Source: a virus
Virus record (IMG/VR): IMGVR_UViG_3300020000_000026
Location: 1-46,534 of that record
Length of the DNA stretch: 46,534 nt
Strand: one strand, 5' to 3'
Shown here: in pieces, positions 1-46,534 of the stretch
How the letters are laid out: every line of letters begins with the position of its first letter
Numbering within the stretch: the stretch's first letter is position 1
Notes under the pieces: generated by a model
Told to the model about the DNA's origin: nothing
Databases searched by the model: none
The model's input: the letters and a program-made list of their open reading frames with translations, nothing else
Translations under genes and position numbers: made by a program

Positions 1-2679
1 TATGGAGTCGATATTGCCGCCGACGATCGCCGTCGTCGCCGTGCCGCCGGTGTCCCAGCGCGAGCTGCCGAGCGCGCTGTGCGCGGGATCGCGGTAGTAG
101 GTCGCGCCGGTGCCATGCGGCACCACGAGCGCCCACAGTGGACGCTTGCCGACCGCCGGCGCCAGCGCGATCGTCCTCGAGGCCGCGCCGTCTCCGGTGT
201 AGGTGACGATCTGGCACGCCTTACCCTTGTTGCTGCCGACGTCGTCGCTGCTGCCGTCGTCGCTGCGCCAGGCGGAGAACGGCACCATGTTGGACGGGCC
301 GAGCCACGAGGCCGCCAGGACGTGAAACGGCTGCTTGGTCGTGATCTGGCCGGCACTGACCGCGATCGCCGCGGCCGTCTCGCCCTGCGTCGCCATGCCG
401 GTCACAGCGGTCGGGTTGCCCTTGCCTTTCCAGAAGCAGCCGGTTGTGGCGACGTTGGGATCCTCGCCCTGGAAGATGATCGCCTCCGGCACGAACGTCG
501 TCCGGATCAGCGGGGTGTTGACGTCGATCGCCTGGTTCTGCTCGTTGACCAGGCCGCCGTTCAACATGAACCGCTGGCCGGGATCGCCGATGGCGATGTA
601 GCTGTAGACGACGCCGGCCGCGTTGCTCTGCGCGCCGCCGCCGACAATCCGCAGGATGCTCTGGATCTGCTGACCGTCGAGGCCGACCGGGACGAAGCTC
701 TCGTCCATGAGCGCCTGCACCATGCCGGCGCCATCGAGCTGATTGGCCGTGCCGACGTGCGACGCCATCAGCGTCGACCACCAGAGCGTTCCGCCGGCGA
801 CGCTGACCGTCGACGGCCGCGCCCGGAAGAAGTGGATCGGCATCGGGAACAGCAGATCCTGGCCGGTGCCGTTGCCGGTGTAGGTGCCGGCGCGCACGAA
901 GACCGGCATGATCGGCGCGACGGTCGAGCGCGCCCAGGGCGTCCGCGGATACGGGTTGTTGTGCGGGCCGGCCGCCTTCGGCAGCACGCTGGGGGGCGGA
1001 GCCAGCGGTCCCAGGTCTTCCTTGCCGAAGCTGCCGATCAGACAGACGGTTGCCGAGAGCCGGCGGATCGTCTCGACGGACGCGCTGCCTTTGATGTGCT
1101 TCAGCACGATCGGCGCGATCGGCTTGACCGGCGTCGGCGTGCCGCTCAGCGCCTTGCCTGCCGTCTTCCAGTCCGCGCTGACGGTGCTCTGCGCGACGGC
1201 GCCAGTCGAGAGCGCCGCGCCGGTGCAGACCGCTTCGTTCGTCGCTACGTTGGTCGAGCCGGTGCCGGTAATGAGCTGCACGCGAATGGCGACGGCGCCC
1301 AGGCTCTCCGGCAGCGCGTCGACCGCGTAGCCGTCCGTGGCGACGGCCAGGACCGCGCCGTTCGTCGACGACGTCAGCAGCGACGTCGGGCCGTCAGTCG
1401 GCGCCGGCAGGTTGCACCAGCGCCAATCGCCGGTAAAGCCGGACATCGCCGCATCGAAGCCGGTCGCGCGGACCTGGATGACGCGGTGCCCGTTCTGGAA
1501 ATCGACGCCGTCCGGCGCGCCCTGATGGTCGCCACAGATCCAGTCGTCGATGTCGATCGCCATCGTGTTCGCTTGAGCGTTGCCCATGCGACTCGAGCCG
1601 TGGCGAGAAAAGAACGAGAGGCTGATGTCGGTCCAGTTGGCGTTAGGCGGCTGGCTGTTCGTGTTGTTGGCGACGGCCTGATATGCGCGTCCGCCGGATC
1701 CCACCTGGTTGCCGATCACGTAGGCGGTGATGCTGTTCCAGGCCGCCGGCAGCGCGCCGGCCGGCCCGCTGCCCAGGGCGTTGACCGTGCCGCTCGCCTT
1801 GATGACGCCGTTGATCCAGAGCTCGAACTGCGTCCCGCCCGAGCCGACCGGCCCATACCAGAAGCGGACGTCGACCTTATACCAGACGCCGACCACCAGG
1901 TTGAACGCGGTGCCGACCGCGGTGTAGACGCTCGTGTTCGTGTCCCAGCCGTAGACGAGTTGACCGGCGGGATTGATCTCGAGGTTGAAGCCCTCGACGC
2001 CGCCGGTGCCGCGCGAGCCCCACAGCCGCGTCTGCGCCGCTGGCGCCTGCCAGAGCCGGATATAGAACCGCTCCCAGCTCGCATTGCTCGAGACGGACGT
2101 GCCGGCGAGGTTCTCGTTGACGTTGTGCGTGCGGATCGTCGTCTGCCCGCGCCAGGCCATGCCGCTGCCGTCCGCGTGCCTCGAGGCCGAGTGTGAACAG
2201 TAACGGTTGTCGTTGTTGGCGTCGCCGTTGACGCCGTTCTCCGGGCCGGCGTTGCCGCTCGGCGGATCGAGAATCTCGAAGCCGTCCCACCATCGCAGCT
2301 TGGCGATGTTCAGCGGAACCGCGACACCTGGCACCGTGGCCGGCGGTGAGTAGGTGTATTGCCCGCGCCAGTGGTAGGTCGTCGTGTCGCCGAACAGCAG
2401 CGGGATGCCGAACCAGCCGCCGCTTTTGCGATCGAAGGCCGCGATGTTGGTCGGGAAGTGATCGCTCGTGCCGAACCATTCCGACGTCTGATAGTTGCCG
2501 GTCTGCGGGATGACGTCGGTCTTGAGCTTGTTGGGGGCGGTGTAGGTGATCGCTGTCGCATCCGGCGCCGCGAGCACGGCGCCGATCGTCTCAGGCGAGC
2601 CCGTCAGCGCGAGGCTGTCGTAGAGCGCCTTGTCCGTCAGGTGGATGTAGTAGACGAGATATTGATGCTTGTGCGACAT
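1..2679 (-). CDS. Fibre-like N-terminal part of a 1425-residue tail fibre/adaptor fusion (continues at window end)
   Basis: The ATG is at 2679 and the frame stays open to base 1. Because bases 2-136 repeat at 46400-46534, it continues in frame at 46398 and stops at 44800, giving 1426 codons with the stop. This part holds residues 1-893. About residues 200-308 look like a LamG/concanavalin-type lectin sandwich (Trp/Tyr-rich strands and an ELWINGV motif). About 312-350 resemble a CBM5/12-type carbohydrate-binding module (AWNSITAY, then AYQA and a PPNANW segment). Later segments resemble phage tail-fibre repeats (TYTGNGTG, TYTGDGAA, VVPHGTGATYYRD). I infer a receptor-binding or fibre role on the short tail. 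The C-terminal part is described at 44800-46534. No clean internal start with a ribosome site splits the frame. The domain calls are by eye; the continuous frame is certain given the terminal repeat. Confidence 0.8.
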   Translation of the reverse strand, partial: MSHKHQYLVYYIHLTDKALYDSLALTGSPETIGAVLAAPDATAITYTAPNKLKTDVIPQTGNYQTSEWFGTSDHFPTNIAAFDRKSGGWFGIPLLFGDTTTYHWRGQYTYSPPATVPGVAVPLNIAKLRWWDGFEILDPPSGNAGPENGVNGDANNDNRYCSHSASRHADGSGMAWRGQTTIRTHNVNENLAGTSVSSNASWERFYIRLWQAPAAQTRLWGSRGTGGVEGFNLEINPAGQLVYGWDTNTSVYTAVGTAFNLVVGVWYKVDVRFWYGPVGSGGTQFELWINGVIKASGTVNALGSGPAGALPAAWNSITAYVIGNQVGSGGRAYQAVANNTNSQPPNANWTDISLSFFSRHGSSRMGNAQANTMAIDIDDWICGDHQGAPDGVDFQNGHRVIQVRATGFDAAMSGFTGDWRWCNLPAPTDGPTSLLTSSTNGAVLAVATDGYAVDALPESLGAVAIRVQLITGTGSTNVATNEAVCTGAALSTGAVAQSTVSADWKTAGKALSGTPTPVKPIAPIVLKHIKGSASVETIRRLSATVCLIGSFGKEDLGPLAPPPSVLPKAAGPHNNPYPRTPWARSTVAPIMPVFVRAGTYTGNGTGQDLLFPMPIHFFRARPSTVSVAGGTLWWSTLMASHVGTANQLDGAGMVQALMDESFVPVGLDGQQIQSILRIVGGGAQSNAAGVVYSYIAIGDPGQRFMLNGGLVNEQNQAIDVNTPLIRTTFVPEAIIFQGEDPNVATTGCFWKGKGNPTAVTGMATQGETAAAIAVSAGQITTKQPFHVLAASWLGPSNMVPFSAWRSDDGSSDDVGSNKGKACQIVTYTGDGAASRTIALAPAVGKRPLWALVVPHGTGATYYRDPAHSALGSSRWDTGGTATTAIVGGNIDSI
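2..136. repeat. Terminal direct repeat, left copy
   Basis: Bases 2-136 match 46400-46534 over 135 bp with one difference: a at 128 versus c at 46526. The difference changes Leu (CTC) to Arg (CGC) in the tail gene. The repeat lies inside a gene and the frame is continuous through it, so it is best read as an assembly overlap of a circular or permuted molecule rather than a functional terminal repeat. The mismatch may be strain variation or a read-end error. Confidence 0.93.
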
Positions 2680-3875: not shown

Positions 3876-5009
3876 CTACGGGACGAGCGCCTCGCTGTTG
3901 AGGAGCTGGTCCGCGCGCTTGATCGGCACGTCGCCGAACATCAGGATCCGCTTGCCGTCGAAGTTGTCGTAGGTCAGCCCGCCGCCGCTGCCGACCGACT
4001 CGCGCGCCTCACGCCGCAGGAACCGCCGCATCGTCCGGTTCATGTAGAACACAGGCCGGCCCAGCGAGTCGGGGATCGTCTCGACCGCCTGCTCCATCAG
4101 GTTGATCAGCGTCTTGACGTTGGCCGCGTTCAGGTCGCTGACGTCGATGTTGCAGATGCGGACGACGTAGCGCCAATCCTTCAGCGCGATGCCGCCCTTC
4201 CACTGGAACCGATCCTGATACGCGCGCATGCGCGCACCCGGCAGGCCGGCGACCATCTCGACGGTGACTTCGCCGTAGTCCTCGTGAATCAGGCCGGCCT
4301 TGCTGCCCTTCGGGAAGATGCCGGTGACCGTCTCCTCGCCCCAGGCGACGAGCCAGATGCTCGCGTTGTCGGAGCCGGAGCCACCGGCCTTGATGACGTT
4401 GTCGACGATCGCGCCCGAGCTCGCGCCGTAGCGCACGCTCAGCCCGGTGAACTGCTCCGGCGCCGCGCCGCCGTTGCCGTAGAACAGGACGCGCCCGAAC
4501 TCCTGGCTCATCGCCTCGATGAAGGCGCGAGCCTCCGAGAGCCGGAACGCGGCAACGTTGCCGTTGAGCAGCGCCAGGTCTTTGTCGACCTCGGTCCACG
4601 CCTCAAGCATGCCGGTCTGTTCGTCGATCTGCGCGGTGGTCGACTTGCTCGGGATGACGCCCTGGTTCAGCAGGCGCCACGCGACGGCCGGCAGCCCGGT
4701 GCGAACGGTCAGCCGGTGCCCGGTCGGAAGGTTGCCCTCGCGCCAGACCATATCGTCGAGAATCTCGTTCTTCTGCGCGAGCAGCTCGACGATCTTGTCG
4801 ACCTTGCCGGTCGGATCCAGGCGCTTCGCCCAATCCGCCAGCGTCAGGTTGCCGGTGCCGAGTGCCGCGCCGAAGACGACGAAGCCGAGCCCCAGGTAGC
4901 GCAGCGCGTCGCCCTGCGTGGCGTGCTGCGCGATCGTCGACGCTGCACCGATGTCCACGGTGAACAGCGCGACGATCGCGGTGATGATCAACAGTCCAGT
5001 GAATCGCAT
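3876..5009 (-). CDS. Major capsid protein with an unusual hydrophobic N-terminal extension
   Basis: 377 residues. From about residue 55 (TLADWAKRLDP) onward it follows the P22/BPP-1-type podovirus coat protein: NEILDDMVWREGNLPTGH, VRTGLPAVAWRLLNQGV, then FYGNGG and IWLVAWGEETVTGIFPKG. These proteins form the HK97-fold shell. Homologues I recall begin near TLADWA. Here about 54 residues precede it, with two hydrophobic segments (about 4-23 and 38-53), the first resembling a signal or membrane anchor. The ATG at 5009 has GAGGGA in front. No ATG, GTG or TTG with a ribosome site lies next to the canonical start; only a CTG codon does. Whether the extension is made, cleaved or bypassed is unknown. 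Confidence 0.9.
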   Translation of the reverse strand: MRFTGLLIITAIVALFTVDIGAASTIAQHATQGDALRYLGLGFVVFGAALGTGNLTLADWAKRLDPTGKVDKIVELLAQKNEILDDMVWREGNLPTGHRLTVRTGLPAVAWRLLNQGVIPSKSTTAQIDEQTGMLEAWTEVDKDLALLNGNVAAFRLSEARAFIEAMSQEFGRVLFYGNGGAAPEQFTGLSVRYGASSGAIVDNVIKAGGSGSDNASIWLVAWGEETVTGIFPKGSKAGLIHEDYGEVTVEMVAGLPGARMRAYQDRFQWKGGIALKDWRYVVRICNIDVSDLNAANVKTLINLMEQAVETIPDSLGRPVFYMNRTMRRFLRREARESVGSGGGLTYDNFDGKRILMFGDVPIKRADQLLNSEALVP

Positions 5010-5767: not shown

Positions 5768-6143
5768 CGGTGCCATCTCCCTGCGTGACGCTGTTGGTGT
5801 GCGCGGCATCGGTCGCCGCGTTCTCGCGGCGCGTCCGTGCGCGAGCCTCTGCTTCCATGAGCTGATACGCGCGCTCGTCGCTCTCGAGCAGCAGCGCAAT
5901 CAGCTCGTGCCCGAAGTCTTGCCGGCCGGCGAGGTAGTAAATCTGCGACGCGCTCGGATGGAAGACCGACGCATAGACGCCCGCGCGCTCGAGCAGCGAC
6001 CAGGCGAAGATGCGGCCGGCCGGCGTCGCCATGACCTGGACGACGGCCGCCTGCTCGAGCTCCTGGCGCTCGCGTTCCTTGCGGCCGGCGCGTTTGACCT
6101 GCCGCGGATCGCCGGCGTTCTTGACCTGCGCTCTCGGTTCCAT
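5754..6143 (-). CDS. Bbp19-like small phage protein
   Basis: 129 residues from ATG 6143, overlapping the end of the portal gene. The core (VMATPAGRIFAWSLLERAGV, then YLAGRQDFGHELIALLLE) matches the Bbp19-like phage domain as I remember it: a small helical protein encoded between portal and scaffold in BPP-1-type phages. Its molecular role is not established; a part in head assembly is inferred from its place. The N-terminus is rich in Lys/Arg/Glu and the C-terminus is likely disordered. Confidence 0.7.
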   Translation of the reverse strand: MEPRAQVKNAGDPRQVKRAGRKERERQELEQAAVVQVMATPAGRIFAWSLLERAGVYASVFHPSASQIYYLAGRQDFGHELIALLLESDERAYQLMEAEARARTRRENAATDAAHTNSVTQGDGTDGNV

Positions 6144-7921
6144 CAGTTACTCGGGACCGCAGCCGGCCCGCTGCCGCGCGCCTGCGGGGGAATGTTGCGC
6201 GCGTTGGCGCTCGCCGACTGCACCATCGCCGCCAGCGCGCTGTCGCCGGTGACCGGCGCCTGGCTCGCGTCGCGCGTCGCCTTGGCGACCTTGACCGCCG
6301 TCTCCGCATCGGCCTGCGCCTGCTGCGCCTGCGCCTGCTGCGCGGTGCGCTGATTCGCCTCGTCGGTCGAGCGCACGATCCGCGGATCGACGCCGAGCAT
6401 CTCCGCGTAGTTGTCGACCGCCTGGTTGACGTCGACCTTGTTGCGGACCTCGGGGAAGACTTCGGCCAGGCCGAGCGTCGTCTGCAGGAACCGATCTTGT
6501 CCGGTGACGCCGACGAGCTTCTGCGCCTGCGCGAGAATCGAAATGTATTCGACCTTCAGCTTGACGCCCTGCAGCTCCTTCGGCGCCGGCGGCACCATGC
6601 CGGCGTCCTGCATCATCTGGAACACGCGATCGACGACCGGATCGAGGAGCTCGTCGTTCGTCCGCTCGAGCACCGGGCCGAGCGCGAGCAGCTTCTCCTC
6701 GTGCCGCTCGTCGACCTCTCGCGCGGTGATCGGCTGACCGCCCTGCTCGCCCTCGCGCGCCAGCATCAGGAACAGGTCTTCGTAGAACGCGCGCTGAATC
6801 CGGTAGATGACGCGATCGCCGTCTTCGATCAGGAAGCGCAGCCCCTCGAGCCGAACCTCGTGGATCGGGCTGAGCCCCTGCTGGCCGTCGCGCACATCCA
6901 CATAGGTGACATCGCCAGGCAGCAGGCTGGTCTTCTGCGTCCGCAGCGAGCTCGGTCCCTTGAGTGGCGGATCGACGGCCTTCGCAATCGCCTGGCCCTT
7001 CCGCTTCTCCATGATCTGCAGTTGCTTGATGTCGCCGAGCGCGATCATGCCTGGCGAGTCCGTGCCATAGCTGTCCTCGCCGGTGATGTCCCAGCGCGGC
7101 GTCATGCAGGGGAACGTCTGGAAGCCGCTCTCGCGGAGAAACTTCTTTTCCTCGCTGCCCTTCTCCCAATGGCAGGACGAGAACGGCAGATACTTCGACT
7201 CGAGCCGCCGGTTGTTGGCGCTCTCGTTCTTCTTGACCATCCAGCAGACCTCGACGCGCTGCTGGTAATCGCCGTTGTCCCACAGGGTTTTGACGTGCAG
7301 CGAGATGTTGGTCCAGTCGATCGTCCGGCCGTCCGCCTGCACGCCGAACTGCTCGACGAGCTGCTCGACGCTCAGCTCGTAGTCGCGCACGAAGGTGCTG
7401 ACCTGGCCGCGATCGTCCTGGCCCAGCGCGAAGCTGCCGAGCGGATAGCTGTAGGCGCGAAACAGATCGCGGCTGTCCGGCACGATCGACATCGCCGCGG
7501 TCGCAAAGATGCCCATGTCGAGATACACGAGCGGCAGCACGTTGTAGAGATTCGATGTCGCAAAGATGGTGAGCATCATCTCCGTGACAACGTGCAGCCA
7601 CTCCTGCACCGGCTTGAACTGCGCCAGCTTCGGGTCCGGCGTGGTGAGCTTCATCCAGGGACGCGCCGGCGACGTCAGGCCGGCGTGCAGCCCGCTCGAG
7701 AGCGTGCGCGCCGAGAACCGCGCCGTCGAGTTGATGATGTTCTGGTTGCGCTTGTCGCCGCGGTTGCGGTCGCCGGCGAAGAACCGCGTGCGCCGCGGCA
7801 TCGTCCAGTCGCCGAGCTCGCGCCAGTGCTGATCGAAGCCGCTCGCGCGCTCGCTGAACAGTGCATCGCGCAGCTTCTCGTAGCGGACGCGCCGATCGTT
7901 GGGATCGCGGTAGGTCGCCAT
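6143..7921 (-). CDS. Portal (head-to-tail connector) protein
   Basis: 592 residues from ATG 7921, which shares TGATG with the upstream stop. The sequence shows the podovirus connector pattern: an N-terminal RYEKLRDAL helix, WRELGDWTMPRR, SARTLSSGLHAGLTSPARPW, and a long mid-region ending in helices and a glutamine/alanine-rich C-terminus. By family knowledge twelve copies form the ring at one capsid vertex through which DNA is packaged and ejected. The length suits T7/BPP-1-type portals. The downstream Bbp19-like, scaffold and capsid genes support the call. Confidence 0.92.
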   Translation of the reverse strand: MATYRDPNDRRVRYEKLRDALFSERASGFDQHWRELGDWTMPRRTRFFAGDRNRGDKRNQNIINSTARFSARTLSSGLHAGLTSPARPWMKLTTPDPKLAQFKPVQEWLHVVTEMMLTIFATSNLYNVLPLVYLDMGIFATAAMSIVPDSRDLFRAYSYPLGSFALGQDDRGQVSTFVRDYELSVEQLVEQFGVQADGRTIDWTNISLHVKTLWDNGDYQQRVEVCWMVKKNESANNRRLESKYLPFSSCHWEKGSEEKKFLRESGFQTFPCMTPRWDITGEDSYGTDSPGMIALGDIKQLQIMEKRKGQAIAKAVDPPLKGPSSLRTQKTSLLPGDVTYVDVRDGQQGLSPIHEVRLEGLRFLIEDGDRVIYRIQRAFYEDLFLMLAREGEQGGQPITAREVDERHEEKLLALGPVLERTNDELLDPVVDRVFQMMQDAGMVPPAPKELQGVKLKVEYISILAQAQKLVGVTGQDRFLQTTLGLAEVFPEVRNKVDVNQAVDNYAEMLGVDPRIVRSTDEANQRTAQQAQAQQAQADAETAVKVAKATRDASQAPVTGDSALAAMVQSASANARNIPPQARGSGPAAVPSN

Positions 7922-9791: not shown

Positions 9792-11039
9792 TCAGAGTGA
9801 GTTGTCGAGAATGGCGTCCGGCGCGTAGGCGCGCAGCGCGGCGACGCCCATGCCGCCGGCGTCGATCTTCCAGCCGTAGGTCGCCGGCGGCAGCGTGACG
9901 TTGATGATCGTCAGCTTCGTCGGCGGCTGTCCGGAGAAATAGCCTTTCGCCGCGATGTTCTGCCCGACGACGGAGACGCCGGCGATCGTGACGTGCGCCG
10001 GCGCGCGGTCGAAGGTGAACAGCCGGCCCGCGCCGCCGGTGATGCCCTTCGGATCGATCTCGGTGAACGAGCTCGCGCGGAGCTGGAAGCCGTCGAGCAC
10101 GCCGCTCGGGTAATTGTTGTCCTGGCCGAGCAGGGTGACGATGCCGCCCGCCTTCCCGCCGCGGCAGTTGGTGATCAGCACGTTCTTGATCGCGGACCAG
10201 GGCGCGTGTCCGTCCTGGTTGCGAACGGTCGCCACGATCAGATATCCGCCCTGGCCGGCCGACGTGCCGGCATACTCGAGCACGCAGTTGTCGACGGTGA
10301 CGCCGATGCACGCCTTGAACTCGAGCGCGGTCTTGATCTGGATGTGGCGCGCGGCCTCGAACCAGGCCGGGTTTTTCGTCAGCGTGCAGCCCTTGATGGT
10401 GACGTCCCGCGGCATGCGCGCCTCGCTCGAGGAGTCGCCGCCGCCGAGCATGATCGACTGGCCGGCCGCCTCGAGGTAACAGTCCTCGATCCACATGCCG
10501 GGGTTCATATCCCAGGCGCAGATCGCTTGTGTGTCCTCGCCGCGCGTGAAGATGTCGGCGATGTAGGCGCCGGTGATCTTCATCGCGCCGCCGTTGGCGA
10601 CGATGCCGCACCGGGCGCCGTTGGTCGGATCGCCGAGCACGCGCACGCGCTCGAGCGTCGGCCGGTTGCCGGCCAGCGTGATGATGCGCGCGAGCGGATC
10701 CTGGTGCCGCACTTCGATGCCGCGCAGCGTGATGTCGTCCGCCGCCAGCTTCAGCCCGCCCAGGAACGCCGGCGCCGGTTCGCCGCGCGTCATGCGCGAG
10801 CTGCCGGCGAGCTCCGACTGCAGGGTGACCGGCTTGAGCAGCGTCCGCGAGAGCGTGTTACTGAAGTCCTTCGCCAGCGTCAGCACCGCGCCGGCCGGTG
10901 AGATGGCGAGCGCCTGGTCGAGCTCGGCGCCGTTGGTGATGAGCGGGTTCGCTGCCGGCGGCACGACGACCGTGCCGATGTCTTTGATCGCCTGGTCGAT
11001 CAGCGCGCGAGCTTGCAGCAGGTTCTCGAGGGTGCCCAT
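9792..11039 (-). CDS. Right-handed beta-helix protein (candidate tailspike/depolymerase)
   Basis: 415 residues from ATG 11039, which has a strong AAGGAG site 6 nt upstream. After a short helical N-terminus (NLLQARALIDQAI), the rest is a regular series of short strands and turns with repeated hydrophobic-x-hydrophobic-x-N/D/G motifs (ITLRGIEVRHQ, VTIKGCTLTKNP, VTVDNCVLEY, VLITNCRGG). This is the pattern of pectate-lyase-like parallel beta-helices. In phages such proteins are often tailspikes that bind or cleave surface polysaccharide. No catalytic residues can be assigned. Its place between terminase and portal is unusual for a spike. Confidence 0.75.
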   Translation of the reverse strand: MGTLENLLQARALIDQAIKDIGTVVVPPAANPLITNGAELDQALAISPAGAVLTLAKDFSNTLSRTLLKPVTLQSELAGSSRMTRGEPAPAFLGGLKLAADDITLRGIEVRHQDPLARIITLAGNRPTLERVRVLGDPTNGARCGIVANGGAMKITGAYIADIFTRGEDTQAICAWDMNPGMWIEDCYLEAAGQSIMLGGGDSSSEARMPRDVTIKGCTLTKNPAWFEAARHIQIKTALEFKACIGVTVDNCVLEYAGTSAGQGGYLIVATVRNQDGHAPWSAIKNVLITNCRGGKAGGIVTLLGQDNNYPSGVLDGFQLRASSFTEIDPKGITGGAGRLFTFDRAPAHVTIAGVSVVGQNIAAKGYFSGQPPTKLTIINVTLPPATYGWKIDAGGMGVAALRAYAPDAILDNSL

Positions 11040-15986: not shown

Positions 15987-16018
15987 CGTCTGCTCTCCTT
16001 GAAGATGTTCCGGGCGAG

Positions 16019-25538: not shown

Positions 25539-25559
25539 CTGTCACTCTCCTCGGGCGAG

Positions 25560-25595: not shown

Positions 25596-26162
25596 GACCT
25601 CCATGCCGCGCAGCCAGGCGAGGATGATCGTTTGCTCCGGCGTCTGCGGTTCGTAGACGTGGATGGCCGTCTCGCGGGCGAGCTCGAACCATCGGCCAGG
25701 GTGCCGCGGCAGCGCGAGCTCGAGCAGCGGGCCGCCGGTGCGATACCGCCGGAGCTCGTGCAGGTCGATCTCCCAGGCGATCGGTCCCTCGGCGCCGGCC
25801 TTGGTCAGCGCCCGCCAGCGTAGGGTGTGCCGGTCGATGCTGAAGACGTTCTCCTTGTGCCTGGCCGAGCACACCAGGACCATCAGCTCGGGCTCTGAGC
25901 GGTCAGCCGCGGGGTTGCCGCCCATACCCTTGTGCTTCGCGTGCGACACTTCGCCGCGCCTGGACGTCGGCGCCAGGGCGAGCTGGAACCGCTTGCAGCC
26001 GCACAGCGGGAACCGACAATATTTGTCCCGCCGGCGGACCTCCGCCTTGTTGCTGTTCTCGCCGGCGAGCCGCTTCTCGCGCTTCAGCCCGCGGGCGACC
26101 TTCCTCGAGCCGGCGCCCTTGAACTGCGGGCCGGTCCAGCGTGGCGGCCAGTCAGCGGTCAT
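25593..26162 (-). CDS. HNH-type zinc-binding nuclease
   Basis: 189 residues from ATG 26162. A basic N-terminus (GSRKVARGLKREKRLAGEN) leads to RRRDKYCRFPLCGC, then VSHAKHKGMGGNPAADRSEP and MVLVCSARHKENVFSID. This has the C-x-x-x-x-C, His, Asn and C-x-x-x-H elements of an HNH (His-Me finger) fold. The rest (RWRALTKAG, YEPQTPEQ) is unassigned. Possible early DNA-cutting enzyme or a recombination nuclease. Its stop codon is part of the promoter cassette that follows. Confidence 0.7.
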   Translation of the reverse strand: MTADWPPRWTGPQFKGAGSRKVARGLKREKRLAGENSNKAEVRRRDKYCRFPLCGCKRFQLALAPTSRRGEVSHAKHKGMGGNPAADRSEPELMVLVCSARHKENVFSIDRHTLRWRALTKAGAEGPIAWEIDLHELRRYRTGGPLLELALPRHPGRWFELARETAIHVYEPQTPEQTIILAWLRGMEV

Positions 26163-35700: not shown

Positions 35701-38700
35701 GAAGACCTCGCCGCCGAACTTGGCGATGATCTGCTCCGCGCAGTTGGTGCAGACGACCGCCTCAGAGCCGTCAGGGAAATGTGACGGTTCATCCTCGGGG
35801 AACTCGACGCCCATCGCTTCGTCCGTCGATGCGGCCTCGAGCTCGGCGACGCGCGCCCTGCCTTCCTCGAGCTCCTTCGGCGACTGGAACAGCGTGGTCT
35901 GCTTACCCTTCGGTTTGGCGATTTCCGACGTCAGCGAGAAAGGCGCCTCGAACTCCGGCGTCTTGACGTCCTGCTCGCGCACGTCGCCGACGTCGCCAGG
36001 CAGCCGCGGCTGCTGCTCGCCCGTCTCGGTCAGCGTGTCGACCTTGGGATCCGGGGGCTCGAGCTCGTCGAACAGCGATTGATAGAACTTCGTCGGGTCG
36101 AAGCTGGTATCGCCGGCGTCGCCGCTCTCGACCGCGTCCTGCTCGAAGCCGGCCTCCTCGAGCATGTTCGCCGGCTGCTGCGCCTGGTCGATCGCCTCGC
36201 TGAGCGAATCGGTGAACTCGCGCGTGACGGGCTCGCCCCACGGTGGCGGGATCATCGGCCGCTCGAGGTTCTTCCAGTCGCCGGCGTTGCGCGCCTCGGC
36301 GACGCGGAGCGCGCCTTCCATCAGGTTGCTCGTGACGTGGCCTGTCTCGAGCAGCTTCTCGATCGCCGCCTGGACCTGCGCGCGGCTGCCGTTGGCGCGA
36401 TCGGCCGGCACCTTCTCGCCTTTGACGGTCTTGGTGTTGACCGGCGAGTAGCCGATGACGTCGTCGTAGACCGGCGCGCCGCCGACCGCCGCGCGCTTGT
36501 CGGCGTTGCCGCCGGCCGCGTTGCCGCTCTTGCCGCGGCTGGCGTTCTCGTCCGTCAGCCAGTGCCAGGTCGCCGGCGTGTATTTGAAGTTGTCGAGCTC
36601 CTCGAGGATCCAGCGGAGATTGCGCTCGACCTCGGGGGTCAGCCTTGCGGCTGTGGCTTCCTTCGGTTCTTTGACGAAGACCTCGTCGAGCTCGGGGATG
36701 CCTCGGCGGGGCGGAGTCCGGCCAGGTTCAGCGACGTTGCCATCGCCTCGCCCTTCTCCATGCCCGACGACATCAGCGCCAGGCTGTTGTCCCTGAGCGT
36801 CTGCAGGTCCGTGCCCTTCTTCAGCGGGGGATGCTGGCCGAGTTTCGACATTGAGGTAGTTCTCCGGATTCTGAGCCGCGTCCGCGTTGTTGTCAACAAG
36901 TCCCTTGCCGCGGCCTTTCAGCGCGTCAGGCTCGGGGATCCGGCCGGCGGCCAGGGCGCGCTCGCGGTTGGCCTGCGCCTCCTTGTCGATGTTGGGGTTC
37001 TCCCGCCGCATCTGCGCCGCGGCGTCGACGATCGACGCCATCGCCGGCAGCGGGGTGTCGCCGGTGCGCCGGCGCATGAGCTCGCCAGCCGCGTCCGCCG
37101 CCTGGCGCCGCTCCGGGCCGGCGTAGCCGCCCAGCGGACGGCCTGCCGCGTCGACCAGGCCAGGTTGCCCTTCCGCCGGCGCCGGCGCCCCAGGCGCGCC
37201 TCCTGCGGCTGCCGGCGGGGTGTTCTGGCCCTCGTCCGGCGGCAGGTCCGGCCGGTCGACGGTCAGCCCATACTGCCGGTAGAGCTCGAGCGGGTCGACG
37301 CCGGCGCGCTGCGCCATCGAACCGAAGGCCGAGTCGACCAGGCTGGCGTATTGGCTCGCGGTGTCCTCGCTGAGCCCGCCGCCCTTGGTGAGCTGCTCGA
37401 GCGCCGCCTGGTAGATCGGGCTGCCGGCTTCGGCCGCCGGCTGGTCCGGCGCCTGCGCCATCTTCTCGATGAGCGCCTTGCTCTCGCGGCCGTTCATCTC
37501 CTCCGGCCCGAGCCGGAGCTCGTCGGCGAAGTGGGCATTGTGCTCCGTGGCCGCCAGCTTGGTCGCGTAGCGCGCGGTCGGGATCGCCATATCCTCGCCG
37601 GTCTTCAGCGCGTTGTCGTAGGCGTCGGGATCGCCGGTGACGTGCGCGGCCATCTCGCGCGGGTCGACCTCGTGCTCCTGCCAGTATTTCGTCCAGTCCT
37701 CGATCGACGTGTAGAGCGTCGGGATCGGGCCGTCCTTGGTCGCGGTCGCCAGGAACTCCTGCGCCGCCTCCGGCAGCCGCTTCGCGGTCTTGCTCTGCTC
37801 GACGCCTTCGCCCAGCGCCTTGAAGAACTCGACGCCCTGCTGCGCGCGGCGCGCGTTGCGGAACTCGCGGACCAGGCCGAGCGCCGGCCCGGTCGCGCCG
37901 ATGATGGCGAACGACTGCACGCCTTCCTCGGCCGCGGCGAGGAGCTGCTGCCCGATCGTCGGCGTGGTGTATTTGCCGGCGGCATAGTCCTCGTGGACCT
38001 GCTTCGCAAACGCGGTGGCGGCCTCCGGGCTGTCGAACTTGCCCATGTGCCGGCCCGTCTTCTTGAACTCCTCGAGCGCCGCTTCCTGGCTCAGATGCCG
38101 GCCGTCCGGCGTCACCGTGGGGAGTAGCACTTCCTTGCCGTCGATGTTGACGCTGAGGCTGTCGACCGTCGAGATGCTGCCGTCCGCGTTCTGGACCGCC
38201 GGCTGCTTGAACAGGTCGACGTTGCCAGGCTCCTGCATGCCGGCGACTGGCGCCCGCTCGCCCGAGCTCGTCGCCAGCGCGTGCATCAGGATGTCGTTCG
38301 TCTTCATGGCGACCATCAGCGCGGTGCCTTCGGTCAGCGTGACGCCGTAGCCCTTGACCATCTCCGCGATCGCGCCGGCGACGGACGGCTGCCGGATCGC
38401 GGCTTTGATGGCGTCGCGCGTCAGCATGCTGGCGACCTTGCCGCCGGCCGCGTCGATGCCGCTGGCGATCAGTTTGCCGCCGCCGAGCATCAGGCCGGCG
38501 TTGATGGCGCCGCTCGTGACCGCCAGCGCCTTCGCCACTTCGGGATCGAGCTTCCGGCCGAGCGCGTCCGTCGTCTCGAGGAAGTCGTCGTAGGCAGCGC
38601 CGGCGGCCGTCTTGAAGGCGCTCGAGCCCAGGCCGTAGGTGTAACCCGCTTCGGCGCCCAGCTTCGCGCCGGCGATCGCGCCGGCAGGTCCGGCCGCCAG

Positions 38701-39393
38701 GAAGCCGGCCGAGCCTACCGCCAGCGCGCCGGCCGCGGTCGGGATCGCCTCCGGCGCCGTCAGCGTGGTGAGCAGCTTCATCGTCTTGGTCAGCGCGCCG
38801 CGGAACCAGGACTGTCCGCTCCCGAGCTCGCCGCCCATCTGCGCGTGCAGCTTGTAGGCGGCCAGGCGATCGTGCTCCTCCTGCGTCAGCGGTTCAAAGA
38901 TGGATTTGGTGCGGAGCTCGCCATACGCCTGCTCGTTGAGCGCCTGGCTGATGGCGCGCGACGGCATCGAGACGAGCCACTCGAGCGCGCCCATCTTGTC
39001 CATGTCGTCGTGCGACACGGCCGCGTTCTTCGGATCGGCCGCCCAGGTCGCCAGCGCCGGCGTGTCGCGGACCATCTCGGTCAGCGGAGCCTGCTCGATC
39101 GCGGTGTGCTTGCGGATCTCGTCGTAGTTGCGGCCGACGACGTCCTGCGGGATGCCGGTCTGCCTCGAGAGCCGAATCACGTCCGCCGCGCGATCGGGTG
39201 TCTCGTCCTGGCTTTGCACCAGGCTGCTGCGGAGCTGCTGCTTCCGGCCGCCGTCCTGCTCGGCGAACATGCGCGCGTAGTCGTCCGCGGTCGGATCCTT
39301 GGTCGCCGGCGTCGCAGGGGCCGGGGCCGGCGGGGGAGTGACGCGCGCCGGCGGAAGCTGCTCGAGCTCGTCGGTCGCCAGGTCGTTCGCCAT
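29761..39393 (-). CDS. Giant multi-domain internal virion/polyvalent protein
   Basis: 3210 residues from ATG 39393 (TGATG with the upstream stop). Domains by eye: hydrophobic helices ~210-350; a PGNVDLFKQPAV domain ~385-470; a papain-like segment with C1215, C1218, H1258 (HDFAIVDG) and D1270; a GNAT-like acetyltransferase ~1350-1450; a conserved LKAGELGGLPVPSLAI polyvalent module ~1470-1560; a zinc metallopeptidase with H1898-E-S-G-H1902 and a downstream HEEF (H1954); long coiled coils; C-terminal hydrophobic helices. Such proteins are carried in the capsid and ejected, delivering several enzymes at once (Bcep22-type giants, polyvalent proteins). It sits last of the virion cluster, in the place of T7 gp16. 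No lysozyme domain was seen. Confidence 0.85.
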   Translation of the reverse strand: MANDLATDELEQLPPARVTPPPAPAPATPATKDPTADDYARMFAEQDGGRKQQLRSSLVQSQDETPDRAADVIRLSRQTGIPQDVVGRNYDEIRKHTAIEQAPLTEMVRDTPALATWAADPKNAAVSHDDMDKMGALEWLVSMPSRAISQALNEQAYGELRTKSIFEPLTQEEHDRLAAYKLHAQMGGELGSGQSWFRGALTKTMKLLTTLTAPEAIPTAAGALAVGSAGFLAAGPAGAIAGAKLGAEAGYTYGLGSSAFKTAAGAAYDDFLETTDALGRKLDPEVAKALAVTSGAINAGLMLGGGKLIASGIDAAGGKVASMLTRDAIKAAIRQPSVAGAIAEMVKGYGVTLTEGTALMVAMKTNDILMHALATSSGERAPVAGMQEPGNVDLFKQPAVQNADGSISTVDSLSVNIDGKEVLLPTVTPDGRHLSQEAALEEFKKTGRHMGKFDSPEAATAFAKQVHEDYAAGKYTTPTIGQQLLAAAEEGVQSFAIIGATGPALGLVREFRNARRAQQGVEFFKALGEGVEQSKTAKRLPEAAQEFLATATKDGPIPTLYTSIEDWTKYWQEHEVDPREMAAHVTGDPDAYDNALKTGEDMAIPTARYATKLAATEHNAHFADELRLGPEEMNGRESKALIEKMAQAPDQPAAEAGSPIYQAALEQLTKGGGLSEDTASQYASLVDSAFGSMAQRAGVDPLELYRQYGLTVDRPDLPPDEGQNTPPAAAGGAPGAPAPAEGQPGLVDAAGRPLGGYAGPERRQAADAAGELMRRRTGDTPLPAMASIVDAAAQMRRENPNIDKEAQANRERALAAGRIPEPDALKGRGKGLVDNNADAAQNPENYLNVETRPASPAEEGHGPADAQGQQPGADVVGHGEGRGDGNVAEPGRTPPRRGIPELDEVFVKEPKEATAARLTPEVERNLRWILEELDNFKYTPATWHWLTDENASRGKSGNAAGGNADKRAAVGGAPVYDDVIGYSPVNTKTVKGEKVPADRANGSRAQVQAAIEKLLETGHVTSNLMEGALRVAEARNAGDWKNLERPMIPPPWGEPVTREFTDSLSEAIDQAQQPANMLEEAGFEQDAVESGDAGDTSFDPTKFYQSLFDELEPPDPKVDTLTETGEQQPRLPGDVGDVREQDVKTPEFEAPFSLTSEIAKPKGKQTTLFQSPKELEEGRARVAELEAASTDEAMGVEFPEDEPSHFPDGSEAVVCTNCAEQIIAKFGGEVFGWEEGTNPTSVVAGPTHGARLDDGQGHDFAIVDGRYLVDPWAVNVEGSSTRAAFDLLNPDDRLEVARLYGDPNTWMRRTADGWVKEMPPALQPKASAKLTPENVAAWAKEVKQRAGRDLQGFSIVLTPEGDLFLESLIVDRGAQRAGLGTKAMLELTRFADLNGKRITLTPAHPGDIGPGEPTSTGRLVKFYKRFGFVENKGRHLDPALDEAMYREPTAIPGRELEAPAPKDPRELIIQHNLTAANLLKAGELGGLPVPSLAITKAADAMTNFGEVTLLGKKEMADPKGYARTRVFGSDVYSPRYPTIHYKIDAAAEKRLGAIVKAEQEATDRNYFDLDSLQKEGPKALEDEPAVMAAFLRKEGVELPKPAMRKDGTGVDSSATRYNLRDLIDVSDERRQAFKEFAAETFKSLQPKEQIYRGFTNMGNRSYQPHTLDNVVKILKKDLRGGESSSNIYGVGQLRSKFAPQFRSLKGIIDAKNLLVDDATFETVKKDVEGELFKVVDQVKPYYTENADRFGFVDTVMAVMEESPKKGISGALKSYGFEDVPDDVKQAIAGYIQKLRTLPTEYFEAKILREVDLAEFGAAVIPDNLKPEARQLLESRGVQLEEYKAGDELDRKRAIADVSKQLADTLMFQPLKRGAIRFGPDRQFNIDLLERADLSTFLHESGHFFLEVFGDLADQVGNLPLEQLTEAQRHLLSDYGTLLQALGVERREDVQTGQHEEFARMFEAYLREGKAPSLALQTPFARFRAWLLSIYDSLKKLNINLTPEVRGVMDRMLATDHAIAEAEQQRGVSAMFTTPESAGMEPREFELYARTVADAHREAQERLDAKLLREVFREQTREWKARREEVKTAVENDVHRRPEYGAIEAMRKGTHPNGEPLVEGLITPPLQLSRKILEERFGAERIKRLPRGIVGSDGGLDPDVVAGMFGYASADAMLTAVEKAPAMRDVIERETKRRMIEEHGSILLDGSLHNQAQAAVANATHDEVIRAEMRALGRLRRTVDPFVKAERAAGRATLEQEKAERAYERRWFEAEAKLRIAVAEGKKQGEIDELTRQVRDLKARARGGAAVIRNAIPDAATLRDAASARINAMRIGDIQPATFWSASRRAGQQALEKAARQDFDGAIAAKQQELINLNLYRQAEQALEDVDDRVRFAKSLGTPAARKLFGLAGQNYLDQVDGILERFEFAKVSQKVLDRRGSLQAFVAGLEAQGLPVDIPEELLDESRRRNYKQLTVEELRGVTDGLKELQHLARLKNRLLRAAEKRELEAVTGSVADAIREHFTGTPATQVERDRRVSNERARMIGDFFASHRKMASLAREMDGFADGGQVWEQLIRPLNEAADREADMVAAATKKFGDIIEQAYPRSQKRLLYEKLEVPAVGQSLSRMERLSIALNWGNEGNRDRVRRGEGWTDSQVQAILDTLDKRDLTFVQATLDAINAYWPEIAAKQERVYGIAPEKVESTEIRAKAGTIAGGYFPLKYDDRADPKAGAHLDLEAGNLARAAAYAQSTTKRGHTKERVSNVKMPLRRDFGVIFEHVNQVIHDLTHHEALIDVNRVLSHPTVQKAIYETHGDLVYRQFKNGVRDVAFGQVPAVNAFERAIGHVRTGATVAGLGWSLSTAMLHLSSALPRAVVRIGPEYVARGIARWTRDAVHMENTAKWIDEQSTMMRNRSRTQQREINELRNQVGVNTGKFSGWIADIVDKTSLGLVGKQGLVDSYFYLVQQAQRIADIPTWLGQYEKSMAAGVSEKDAIAHADQAVLDAFGGGQNKDLASVQRGGPLLRLWTNFYSPFNVTYNLTVEANRRARFNDPGSIGRLAVDYLMLYSVPATMGMLIHGALKANPKQSANDEDASTIAAELLKGHAAYAADTMLGFRELSGAIEGYYGYEGPAGARLFASVGRVISQTEHSAAKLHEGKPEEAFGRSFWLSLNDAGGVIFHYPSGQAGRTIDGIAALIEGKTSNPGALIVGAPKK
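36868..36899 (-). promoter_or_regulatory. Inverted repeat and promoter-like sequence inside the giant gene
   Basis: GACTTGTTGACAACAAC occurs in frame in the giant gene (repeat 36887-36899). On the minus strand TTGACA (36896-36891) is followed after 17 bp by CAGAAT (36873-36868), a 4/6 match to a -10 box. It may be an internal promoter/operator for the 3' part of the gene and the lysis genes, or a by-product of the encoded residues. Confidence 0.5.
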
Positions 39394-42568: not shown

Positions 42569-44800
42569 CTAGCCTCCCATTTCGACGTCCGGCAGGATGC
42601 CGAGGATCGTCAGCGGTAGCGGATCGGTGTGTCGCAGGAAGACCCGACCATTGTCGTCGAAGCTGCTGGTCAGGCTCATCTCGACGTCGCCGGTGAACAG
42701 GTTGAGCGCCGCCTCCCAGGGTTTCCGGAAGAACGGCACGAGCGCGCCGGAGCTCGGGCCGACCAGGAACGTGCGACTCGAGTCCTCGAGCAGCACCATC
42801 AGCATCTCGATGCGCTTCTTCTTGCCGCGCACGCTCGAGCCCTGCACGTCCAGGTCGAGCGTCTCGAGCTCCGCGGTGATCGGCAGCCCGACGTGGATGT
42901 CCGAGTAGCTCGCCGGAAAGTTGACCGGGAACGTGCCGCCGGTGACCGTGAAGTTGGCCGCCAGCGCGCCGGCGGGATCGCCGTTGTAGATGACGGCGCC
43001 GTCGCCGAGCACAGAGACGACCTGGCCGTTCAGGTGCGCCAGGCCGGTGACGTTGTTGGTCGGCGCGCCGGAGTAGCTCAGGCCGCAGTCGACGAAGAAG
43101 GCGTCCGTGTTGAACGTGACGATCTGCCGGCGGACCAGGCGCTCGATCTGCCGCTGGAAGACGCCGCCGATCGTCCGCCGCGTAATCAGGTAAACGGTGT
43201 CGCCGTCGACCTCCGGCACCACACACACATGCTCGAACCGGCAGGCCGCGCCGCTGTCGTGCCGGTGCCAGCCCCACACTTCTTGTTCTCGGATGTAGGT
43301 CATGCCCAGCAGCGTGCCGTCCGAGCGGCAGCACCAGACGACGCTGTCGGGGTTCTGCTGGAAGTCAAGCTCGTTGACGCTGAAGCCCTTGAACAGATGA
43401 TCGCTGAAGATGCACAGGTCTTTGCCGGCGAGCCCCTCGACCTGCAGGTCGAACTGCAGATCGAACAGCGTCGACCCGAGCTTCTCGACGTAGACGATGC
43501 TGTTGCCGATGACGACCGGGGCGACGTCGGAGATGCCGACGTAGGTGTTCTGCAGCGCGACGATCGCGCTCGGCGTGAGCGGCGCGCCGGTGCCGCCGCC
43601 GTTGACGACCCAGGCGCCGCCGCCGGTCAGCACGATCAGATCCTTCAGGCCGATCAGGTGCCGCACCGGACTGTGATTGTTGCCGGCCATGCGGAAGGTG
43701 ATCGCGTCGTCGTTCTGCAGCGGTTGGCTGATGCTGAAGTTGGAGACGAGCCCGGTCTTGCTTGCGAAGATGCCGTCCGGCGCCTGGTCCGTGTAGCCGA
43801 AGATGCGCCGCTGCTGGAAGGCGCCCGAGCGGTTCGGGAAATCGCCGGCCGTCGAGAATCGGGTATTCGGCTTCGGGGGCGTCTGCGTGAAGTCCGGCAC
43901 GATGCCGGTGTTCTGGAACTTGTTCGTCGACGCCGTGCCGATGAAGCCGAAGATGCCATTGCCGGCCGGATCGCAGTAGACGTAATACTCCGCCGGCGCC
44001 AGGCCCGCCGGGGCGACCCACGTCAGCAGATCCGGAGCCGCCGGCGTCGCCGGCGCGCTGGCGGCCTGGACCGCGATGTTGCTCGGCAGCCCCTCCTCGT
44101 AGGTGTTCGGCGCCGCCGCGGTGACGACGTAGGACACGGTCAGCACACCAGCCGCGCCCGCGGTGAAGGCGAGCGCCGTTGGCGCGCCGATGACCGCCGA
44201 CGTTGCCACCGGCCGCAGGATCCAGGCCGTCGTGCTGCCACCGTTGATCAGCTCATACGGCGCGTGCAGATGATGCGTCAGCGTCAGCGTGCGCCCGCTC
44301 TGCGACACATGCGGCAGGTCCGCGCCGAAGGGGTTCGGCAGCTCGAAGTTGGTCCCGGTGAAGGTGACCCAGCTCGCGCCAGGCGGGGCGACGCCAACCT
44401 GGATCGCCAGCGAGTAGTAGACGACGCCGCCGCTCTGCACCAGGTCGCCGACGACGTAGTTGGTCGCGCCGTTGTAGGCCGCGATCGAGCCCAGGACGAC
44501 CTGCAGCCTGGCGCCGTTCAGATACGGCCGCAGGTAGTTGGTGCCCATCTCCCACAGGATCGACTCGCCGGTGTTCTCCGACACGTAGCGAAACAGCCCG
44601 ACGTTGATCGACGTCGTCTTCGTCAGCCCGATCAGCCGCGTGCCTGGCCGGTTGGTGACGCCGCCGTGCCGCTGGACGATAAAGTTGCGGCAGCGTCGCA
44701 GCCCGGTGACGTATTTGACCAGGTCCGCTCGCGCGTGCAGCGCCGGCGCCAGCTCGCCGCCGGAGAACGCGCGTTGAATGAGCTGCTGCGGATTCGCCAT
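42569..44800 (-). CDS. Tail nozzle protein (tail tubular protein B, T7 gp12-like)
   Basis: 743 residues from ATG 44800, sharing TGATG with the end of the fibre/adaptor gene. The N-terminal signature is strong: IQRAFSGGELAPALHARADL, LRRCRNFIVQRHGGVTNRPG and TRLIGL, seen in nozzle-type proteins of many podoviruses. The body is beta-rich, with WGWHRHDSGA and VYLITRRTIGGVFQRQIERL typical of the family. Six copies form the tube below the adaptor ring. Length is in the family range. Confidence 0.85.
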   Translation of the reverse strand: MANPQQLIQRAFSGGELAPALHARADLVKYVTGLRRCRNFIVQRHGGVTNRPGTRLIGLTKTTSINVGLFRYVSENTGESILWEMGTNYLRPYLNGARLQVVLGSIAAYNGATNYVVGDLVQSGGVVYYSLAIQVGVAPPGASWVTFTGTNFELPNPFGADLPHVSQSGRTLTLTHHLHAPYELINGGSTTAWILRPVATSAVIGAPTALAFTAGAAGVLTVSYVVTAAAPNTYEEGLPSNIAVQAASAPATPAAPDLLTWVAPAGLAPAEYYVYCDPAGNGIFGFIGTASTNKFQNTGIVPDFTQTPPKPNTRFSTAGDFPNRSGAFQQRRIFGYTDQAPDGIFASKTGLVSNFSISQPLQNDDAITFRMAGNNHSPVRHLIGLKDLIVLTGGGAWVVNGGGTGAPLTPSAIVALQNTYVGISDVAPVVIGNSIVYVEKLGSTLFDLQFDLQVEGLAGKDLCIFSDHLFKGFSVNELDFQQNPDSVVWCCRSDGTLLGMTYIREQEVWGWHRHDSGAACRFEHVCVVPEVDGDTVYLITRRTIGGVFQRQIERLVRRQIVTFNTDAFFVDCGLSYSGAPTNNVTGLAHLNGQVVSVLGDGAVIYNGDPAGALAANFTVTGGTFPVNFPASYSDIHVGLPITAELETLDLDVQGSSVRGKKKRIEMLMVLLEDSSRTFLVGPSSGALVPFFRKPWEAALNLFTGDVEMSLTSSFDDNGRVFLRHTDPLPLTILGILPDVEMGG

Positions 44801-46534
44801 CAGCGTCCGGCGATCCAGTCGGCATCAGGGTTGGTCAGGTCCGGCTGTCCCTCGTTGGCTGCCGCCTTCTTCGCCGTCGAGATGGCCTGGTAGTAGTTGC
44901 GCTGCGCGGTGTCGGCTGCTCGAGCACGGAGCTGCGCGCCGGTCGCCGGCCGCTCGCGCGGGATGCGCCCATCGTCCGGCCCGCGGCCGAAGCTCTCCGT
45001 CTCCTCCGGCACCTTGACCGCCAGGCTCGGCGCCATCGTCCAGGCCAGGCGCCAGGCGAGCGCATCGCGGAACAGCGCATCAGAAATCAGGACCGCGCCG
45101 ATCGGCCGGTTCGTGTATTCGATCGTGACCGGCAGGCTCGTGCTGATGGCCTGGTCCGTGAACAGCAGCCCGCCGGTCGCGTCGATCGCCTGGCGGAACT
45201 CCGGCGGCTGCCGCTCGTAGGTGCGCCTCGAGGCATCGACCATGCGCCGGACGAAGACGACATCAGTCGGCAGCCGGTAGCTGTATTGCCAGTCGGCGTT
45301 GACCGGCACCGAGCTCGTGCCGCCGACCAGCGCCAGGCTCGCGTATTGCGTGGCGAACGACCAGGGGAAATCGCGCAGCGTCGCGCGGAGCTCCTGCTCG
45401 AAGACGATGCGGGCGACCTGCGCCTCTCGAGATTGATCGGTCGAGACGTTCCGGATCGTCCGCGCGCCGATGCGGACCAGCGCCAGGTTGATGACGTTGA
45501 CGTTGGCCGCCAGCATCGGCGCCGTCGTGTCGTAGGTCGACGTCGCCGGGATCTCGCCAGGGTTGCCCGGTCGCAGCACGAGCTGCGCCTTGCCGATCGC
45601 CTCGGCGTAGCCCTTGGCGCAGTTGACCGCGGTGTCCGTCAGCCGCGAGAGCCCTGGCGCCAGGAGCTCGGCGAGCTTCCACATCGCCGCCTCGCGGAAA
45701 AGGGGCTCGCTGCGGGTGTGCGGACACTTCGGCCGCGCCGTGTATTCGAGCACGGCCTGCGCCTGGTTGGTGAAAATCAGGTTGCCGGTCGCGTCGCTCG
45801 AGCAGGCGAACGGGATCGGCGCCGCGTCCGCGACGTCCGTCCTCGAGGCCGCGATGCGCCGCTCAAAGATGCAGTCGCTCGGCTGCCGGTAGGCATAGAG
45901 CCAATCGCTGTTAGGCCGCGTGGTGCCGACCTGCGTGAGCTGCACGTAGCGCGTGGCGAACGGCCAGGCGAAATCGCGCAGCGTTTGCTGGATGGCGTCG
46001 TTGTAGACCAGGCGGACCTCGGTCGCCTCGGGGATCGCGTCCGTGGCGACGACCGCGATCTGCGTGGTGATGCCGATGCGCGTCAGCGCCATGTTGATCA
46101 TGCGCGTGGTGTCGGCGATGCAGGCCGGATCCAGATCATCGGTCAGCGACGGCATCGGTCCCGCCGGCGGGAGCGGATCCGGCAGGACGACGACCGGCGT
46201 CGGATCGGGCGATGGCGGATTGCCAGGCACTTCGCCGGGGCTCGGGCCGTCGACTGGGATGTCAGACGGCGGGGGATCCGGCGGCACCGGCCAGAAGTCG
46301 CCAGGGATCGACCAGCCATCGTTGCCGGCCGTCGAGTCGCCAGGGATGACCAGCACGTCGTAGACGATGCCGTTGGTGTTGATCAGCGGGCCGACACTGA
46401 TGGAGTCGATATTGCCGCCGACGATCGCCGTCGTCGCCGTGCCGCCGGTGTCCCAGCGCGAGCTGCCGAGCGCGCTGTGCGCGGGATCGCGGTAGTAGGT
46501 CGCGCCGGTGCCATGCGGCACCACGCGCGCCCAC
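44800..46534 (-). CDS. C-terminal part of the tail fibre/adaptor fusion: two tandem tail-adaptor (gp11-like) domains
   Basis: Continuation of the gene at 1-2679; the 5' side is cut by the window end. Residue numbers are for the whole 1425-residue protein. A proline-rich linker (about 925-980) leads to two copies of a tail tubular protein A-like domain: MINMALTRIG at 993 and VINLALVRIG at 1195, an offset of 202. Each then has LRDFAWPFAT or LRDFPWSFAT, and WLYAYRQPSDCIFERR or WQYSYRLPTDVVFVRR. In T7, gp11 forms a 12-copy ring between portal and nozzle. Two domains per chain would need only six chains. The stop overlaps the nozzle start. A GTG at 46524 could start a shorter product but has no clear ribosome site. 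Confidence 0.85.
   Translation of the reverse strand, partial: WARVVPHGTGATYYRDPAHSALGSSRWDTGGTATTAIVGGNIDSISVGPLINTNGIVYDVLVIPGDSTAGNDGWSIPGDFWPVPPDPPPSDIPVDGPSPGEVPGNPPSPDPTPVVVLPDPLPPAGPMPSLTDDLDPACIADTTRMINMALTRIGITTQIAVVATDAIPEATEVRLVYNDAIQQTLRDFAWPFATRYVQLTQVGTTRPNSDWLYAYRQPSDCIFERRIAASRTDVADAAPIPFACSSDATGNLIFTNQAQAVLEYTARPKCPHTRSEPLFREAAMWKLAELLAPGLSRLTDTAVNCAKGYAEAIGKAQLVLRPGNPGEIPATSTYDTTAPMLAANVNVINLALVRIGARTIRNVSTDQSREAQVARIVFEQELRATLRDFPWSFATQYASLALVGGTSSVPVNADWQYSYRLPTDVVFVRRMVDASRRTYERQPPEFRQAIDATGGLLFTDQAISTSLPVTIEYTNRPIGAVLISDALFRDALAWRLAWTMAPSLAVKVPEETESFGRGPDDGRIPRERPATGAQLRARAADTAQRNYYQAISTAKKAAANEGQPDLTNPDADWIAGR
46159..46172. repeat. 14-bp palindrome TCCCGCCGGCGGGA in the proline-rich linker of the tail gene
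   Basis: Exact copy of the palindrome core seen at 14815-14828, 18255-18268 and 27410-27423. It encodes part of the Pro-rich linker, where sequence is free to vary. Confidence 0.5.
46400..46534. repeat. Terminal direct repeat, right copy
   Basis: Matches 2-136 except at 46526 (c instead of a at 128). Joining the copies gives a circle of about 46,398 bp and a single uninterrupted tail gene across the joint. Confidence 0.93.

Follow-up and report, generated by a model that had tools for sequence, protein, structure and literature searches.

A predicted lectin-like arm and two tandem T7 gp11-type adaptor domains in one viral protein encoded across the genome joint

The virus record IMGVR_UViG_3300020000_000026, from an uncultured short-tailed phage and analysed here over all of its positions 1 to 46,534 (the window, 46,534 nucleotides), encodes on its minus strand a protein of 1425 residues in which an N-terminal arm is fused to two genuine adaptor domains, D1 and D2, of the type of T7 gp11. 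From the pattern of conservation we lean slightly toward an assembly of six two-domain chains in a pseudo-12-fold ring. The copy number of six and the placement of D1 and D2 side by side are inferred from features of the two domains, of the linker between them and of the relatives of the fused protein.

Two adaptor domains at the end of one chain

Aligned with each other, as the earlier note on this DNA had proposed, D1 and D2 prove to be homologous, with 41% identity over 174 columns and a score of 115 bits, against 22.7 bits for the best of 100 shuffles. Two stretches of the fused protein match PHROG 394, annotated 'tail protein' (E = 1e-57), and among PDB entries a profile of the family picks out the Carin-1 connector (8ck1_E, E=2e-34) and LME-1 orf17 (9efk, 12 chains, E=1e-11). 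An AlphaFold model of the adaptor region (predicted local distance difference test, pLDDT, 79; predicted template modelling score, pTM, 0.49) repeats a helix–helix–strands–helix–helix pattern twice, and Foldseek relates this model to the Carin-1 connector, LME-1, KP32 TTPA, T7 gp11 and the P-SCSP1u adaptors. The domain starts lie about 203 residues apart, close to the 202 given in the note, and each domain matches adaptors of the T7 gp11 type both in profile and in fold.

The resemblance to T7 gp11 (PDB 6r21, 7box, 7ey7) and KP32 TTPA (5mu4) extends from fold to gene order. The model contains the four-helix bundle, in which the strands of a fibre dock separate the second helix from the third, and the gene lies between the capsid and nozzle genes and adjoins that of a gp12-like nozzle. 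In T7, however, gp11 is a free single-domain protein of about 200 residues, present in 12 copies per ring, and the fibre, gp17, is separate; here two diverged domains end a 1425-residue protein that also carries an N-terminal arm.

The gene is a single in-frame open reading frame that begins with an ATG at 2679, runs to position 2, continues from 46399 to 44800, and terminates at 44800-44802. It crosses a 135-nucleotide terminal repeat, in which positions 2-136 equal 46400-46534 with one mismatch that makes residue 851 either L or R; closing the molecule at either copy keeps one frame. A 7.6-kb contig (L001), 99.8-100% identical to the window, is contiguous through the joint, with no break there, and two linear contigs (L002 and L003) encode a homologous 1553-residue protein internally. 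Thus the joint is genuine and the protein was not created by closing the contig into a circle, in line with the note's description of one open frame through the terminal repeat. The coordinates attached to that description, 44800-46534, do enclose the C-terminal 577 residues, but the N-terminal 893 residues are encoded outside them, at 1-2679. Away from the joint, L001 lacks 46 nucleotides around its position 4877 (window about 1260-1306, in the arm region), which breaks its own frame, and it has an additional in-frame deletion of 9 nucleotides; these deletions are either a real variant or an assembly error.

The arm (residues 1-893) is predicted with a pLDDT of 73, and Foldseek places it among jelly-roll folds of the ConA, LamG and carbohydrate-binding module (CBM) kinds, with low template modelling scores relative to the whole query. 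The homologous arm of one relative (L008) matches Laminin_G_3 at E=3e-7. The lectin- or CBM-like character that had been ascribed to the N-terminal half is thereby borne out at the level of fold. Residues 1-893 themselves match nothing in Pfam, in PHROGs or among the phage records, tail-fibre families included; no cultured phage in those records carries the arm, and a genome scan with the arm as query gave no match. The top Foldseek matches of the arm are receptor-binding domains of toxins; at 7-12% identity, these are taken to have no more than the jelly-roll lectin fold in common with it. A beta-sandwich duplication suspected by eye near the joint was also discarded, its alignment score of 39 falling below the shuffle maximum of 52.

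The name 'tail fibre' fits the protein only loosely. The arm resembles lectin-like beta-sandwiches and not a known trimeric fibre fold, and the order of arm and anchor is reversed: T7 gp17 has an N-terminal anchor at the adaptor and nozzle and a C-terminal receptor tip, whereas here the arm is N-terminal and the adaptor C-terminal. On the predicted folds, 'lectin-like arm' is the better supported name, and the arm may serve in receptor binding. A proline-rich linker, variable among relatives, joins it to D1, and the distance from arm to D1 in relatives is 107-137 residues (standard deviation 8.4).

This linker raises the question of whether arm and adaptors stay together. The protein might be a precursor cleaved at the proline-rich linker, or be translated in part from an internal start near residue 975, so that arm and tandem adaptor would exist as separate proteins. 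There is a methionine at residue 975, and a protease is encoded elsewhere in the genome. That gene, however, adjoins the capsid gene, as that of a prohead protease would; no strong ribosome site precedes Met975; only 14 of 53 fused proteins have a methionine anywhere in the stretch of 60 residues that precedes their first adaptor domain; and about 40 full-length relatives preserve the reading frame across the fusion. Initiation at Met975 in particular was rejected because this residue is not conserved among relatives. We regard separation of arm and adaptors as improbable.

Divergence of D1 and D2 and the form of the ring

The clearest difference between the two domains is an insertion of 25-30 residues, usually containing GRGP, between helices 3 and 4 of D2. 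The α3–α4 span measures 40-49 residues in all 28 second or middle domains of fused proteins, versus 12-16 in the other 100 domains compared. The α1–α2 loop differs more subtly, with 13 residues in 23 of 27 D2 domains and 14 in 23 of 27 D1 domains and in 24 of 25 fused single domains. In T7 the α1–α2 loops of two adjacent gp11 subunits alternate in conformation to bind one gp12, and α4 of gp11 ends at the portal (PMC6702177). The latter would place the α3–α4 turn at the nozzle end, so that both D2-specific changes would face the nozzle. A conserved C-terminal tail, identified by motif, is found in 16 of 20 D2 domains and in none of 21 D1 domains.

The connection between the domains is equally regular. 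From the tyrosine of helix 4 to the asparagine of helix 1 the distance is 40-42 residues in all 25 fused tandem proteins and 33 in the three tandem proteins that lack an arm. Both ends of an up-down four-helix bundle lie on one side. Since the ends of the bundle share a side, a short linker of fixed length would suit neighbours in one ring better than members of stacked rings. Neither the window nor any of 19 relatives of 43-50 kb yielded a further adaptor gene. The constant linker, the divergence of D2 at its nozzle end and the failure to find another adaptor gene are the reasons for favouring six chains.

Most likely, then, six chains would sit on the 12-fold portal, with D1 and D2 side by side in a pseudo-12-fold ring whose distal face would be truly 6-fold. 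Each chain would meet one nozzle subunit and carry one arm. The alternating conformations of identical gp11 subunits in T7 would be replaced by two diverged domains, with their positions built into the chain, and the tandem protein would constitute a covalent repeating unit of two adaptor positions and one arm.

A different stoichiometry has to be weighed. If twelve chains were present, one domain of each, probably D2, could form an ordinary 12-fold ring, and D1 could make up an additional layer, or else a docking collar bearing the arms. Retention of the C-terminal tail in D2 only, where by its position it may correspond to the embracing helix of T7, accords with such an arrangement, as do the single-adaptor relatives, whose existence implies that a chain may need only one domain; a relative with three domains (L051) would also be easier to explain if the extra domains were accessory. 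On the other hand, D1 keeps the full helix bundle and dock, shows a degree of conservation equal to that of D2 (mean identity 50% against 52%) and still has a loop of the kind seen in single-domain adaptors, and the fixed short linker with termini at the same end favours neighbours in one ring. Twelve chains therefore seem unlikely, though they are the most serious competitor to six.

Several observations weigh against the six-chain ring. The pTM of 0.49 leaves the orientation of D1 relative to D2 unfixed in the adaptor model. Standalone adaptors have α1–α2 loops of 12-14 residues, which makes the one-residue difference in D2 weak by itself, and in the armless tandem family the α1–α2 loop of the second domain is altered and the α3–α4 insertion is absent. 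The insertion and the loop change of D2 are probably single ancestral events, of which the many copies are not independent tests. Finally, the three domains of L051 fit no six-fold ring of 12.

One, two and three adaptor domains in the family

Scans of viral contigs, with the window counted among the two-domain proteins, yielded 21 full-length proteins with an arm and one adaptor domain and 19 with an arm and two, the order arm–D1–D2–nozzle being conserved in the latter. Homologues with the architecture of the window protein, for which the earlier note had recommended a search, thus do exist. One protein, on a contig truncated at its 5' end (L051, 2-2491), has an arm and three adaptor domains, the middle one D2-like with a D1-like end, as from unequal recombination or a chimera. 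Three contigs (L116, L217 and L229) encode tandem adaptors that lack an arm and arose independently. Among genome-length contigs with the fused gene, the total of adaptor domains is one in those of the single type and two in those of the double type, so that the fused gene is not supplemented by a separate adaptor gene of this family; a hidden second adaptor gene was looked for in the single-adaptor genomes, and none was found. The six fibre arms envisaged in the earlier note do not hold as a general rule, given that each arm goes with a single adaptor domain in 21 full-length relatives and that one contig encodes three domains. The single-adaptor relatives presumably carry twelve arms, so the number of arms is not fixed across the family.

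Three trees of 88-128 domains bear on the origin of the tandem. The D1 domains of fused tandem proteins group together (support 79-93), as do the D2 domains (95-97); the fused single domains form a third group (82-85) in two of the three trees but not in the tree of 128 rows. Since D1s and D2s form separate clades, the tandem appears to go back to one old duplication, kept since. Mean identity between D1 and D2 within a protein is 39%, lower than between the D1 domains (50%) or the D2 domains (52%) of different proteins, which argues that both copies were kept and diverged in role. The trees do not decide between fusion first and duplication first, because the mutual order of the D1, D2 and single groups gives p values of about 0.45-0.49 in the approximately unbiased test.

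Single and double forms are interspersed. Counting only switches forced by well-supported branches of quick trees, there are at least four on the nozzle tree, seven on the arm tree and six on the capsid tree. The simplest reading of these trees is that one- and two-domain adaptor modules have been exchanged between genomes as cassettes and function with arms and nozzles of the same classes. Their mixing across the nozzle, arm and capsid trees is as if either module completes the same ring. Such alternation, at least four to seven times on the three trees, together with the occurrence of one, two and three domains, might suggest that the tandem is left over from unequal recombination and plays no part in symmetry, its domain number drifting freely. 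Drift would be expected to mix the domains or leave hybrids, yet D1 and D2 each occupy their own clade, the singles have a clade to themselves in two of three trees, only L051 is hybrid-like, and the D2-only insertion is universal. A relic of this kind is very improbable.

Some relatives depart from the common plan. On a 61.6-kb contig (L016, 5349-9792) a window-type arm is joined to a phrog_399 domain and adjoins a separate gene matching SU10_adaptor (Pfam); the separate adaptor and the fused C-terminus show no significant pairwise similarity, and their link, a common match to phrog_399, is a weak one. In this single contig, with its weak scores, an adaptor of a second family seems to have acquired the arm, which would fit the same idea of fused arm and adaptor, realised in another way. 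Another locus (L053:4238-7876) encodes arm and tandem adaptors over three overlapping frames, reflecting either frameshift errors or a truly split gene. CBM-like insertions lie inside the adaptor domain, after the second helix, in L052, L015, L025, L028 and L036, and other insertions occur in D1 of L002, L021, L022, L034 and L116 (FCCH-like in L116).

Beyond this family, the closest solved or cultured relatives in sequence, the Carin-1 connector 8ck1_E, epsilon15 gp11 and Tr60_Ab31 ORF10, are standalone single domains, and all relatives that a genome scan with the tandem adaptor returned were standalone (in Magnetospirillum, Pseudomonas, Desulfovibrio, Sporomusa and others). The 'tail tubular protein' VP2p14 of Vibrio phage VP2 (741 residues; L117:9329-11554) is a cultured example of an adaptor fused to extra domains, but its single adaptor domain is N-terminal and the C-terminal appendage, about three immunoglobulin-like domains and a Gly-rich tail, is unrelated. 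Predicted structures of three proteins of uncultured phages, A0A6J5LSM0 (512 residues), A0A516L4P3 (583) and A0A516M5L4 (1139), align over about 450 columns, the length of a tandem adaptor. No description of a fibre–adaptor fusion with tandem adaptor domains was found in the open-licence PMC literature; the claim that the architecture is new extends as far as these papers and the collections consulted.

Neighbouring genes and implications for tail symmetry

The portal and capsid genes lie upstream of the fused gene (Table 1). It is doubtful that the virus dispenses with a separate fibre gene, because a beta-helix-like 415-residue protein, a probable tailspike, is encoded at 9792-11039 with a good ribosome site; its profile match to tail spikes is weak, and relatives occur in 4 of 20 related records at 35-53% identity. 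An internal virion protein of 3210 residues (phrog_9880, 29761-39393, minus strand) occupies a gp16-like position. A direct repeat of 45 nucleotides, 87% identical between 16011-16055 and 25552-25596, is possibly a promoter or operator pair.

Table 1. Positions of the fused gene, its parts and neighbouring genes in the window
Feature	Position	Strand	Remarks
Fused protein, N-terminal part	1..2679	minus	893 residues (MSHKHQYL...); frame open up to joint
Fused protein, C-terminal part	44800..46533	minus	577 residues and stop
Terminal repeat, left copy	2..136		Repeat match; L001 runs across
Terminal repeat, right copy	46400..46534		One mismatch, L/R at residue 851
Proline-rich linker, arm to D1	46156..46302	minus	Residues ~926-974; variable among relatives
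Adaptor domain D1, T7 gp11-type	45550..46155	minus	Residues 975-1176; without C-terminal tail
D1 α1–α2 loop	46033..46074	minus	Length as in fused singles
D1–D2 linker	45523..45576	minus	Residues ~1168-1185 (RPGNPG...)
Adaptor domain D2	44803..45543	minus	Residues 1179-1425; with C-terminal tail
D2 α1–α2 loop	45430..45471	minus	One residue shorter than in D1 and fused singles
D2-specific insertion, α3–α4	44941..45021	minus	GRGP...; in 28/28 fused second/middle domains, 0/100 others
Nozzle, T7 gp12-like, next gene	42569..44800	minus	phrog_376, E=2e-152; start codon overlaps fused-gene stop
Major capsid protein	3876..5009	minus	PF20911 GP7, E=5e-125
Protease gene	5036-5899		phrog_458; adjoins capsid gene
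Portal protein	6143..7921	minus	phrog_332 'head-tail adaptor', E=8e-148
415-residue protein, probable beta-helix tailspike	9792..11039	minus	Ribosome site AAAGGAG; weak phrog_2234 tail spike, E=0.06

How a 12-fold ring of identical subunits joins a nozzle of 6-fold symmetry is a classic question in the structure of tailed phages, to which the answer in T7 is one chain in two conformations. Other phages offer partial parallels. In P-SCSP1u one fibre is held by two adaptors and one nozzle subunit (PMC10575957), and in SU10 one long fibre branches off every second adaptor (PMC9509320). Two neighbouring copies of SU10 gp11 differ and jointly hold one fibre (PMC9509320), much as D1 and D2 would share one arm; unlike the window protein, the 12 adaptors of SU10 come from one gene and the fibres are separate trimers. 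Tentatively, the fused family may have turned the alternating A and B states of such a ring into two specialised domains with an arm, so that the polypeptide itself would set both the step from 12 to 6 and the number of arms, and modules of twelve single or six double chains would be swapped as equivalents.

The two ring positions have seemingly been split into two sequences, and residues specific to each position could thus be read from an alignment and tested domain by domain. The insertion peculiar to one paralogue offers a concrete target for structure and mutation. A putative receptor-binding arm held covalently in the ring beside the portal could pass the event of binding straight to the DNA channel.

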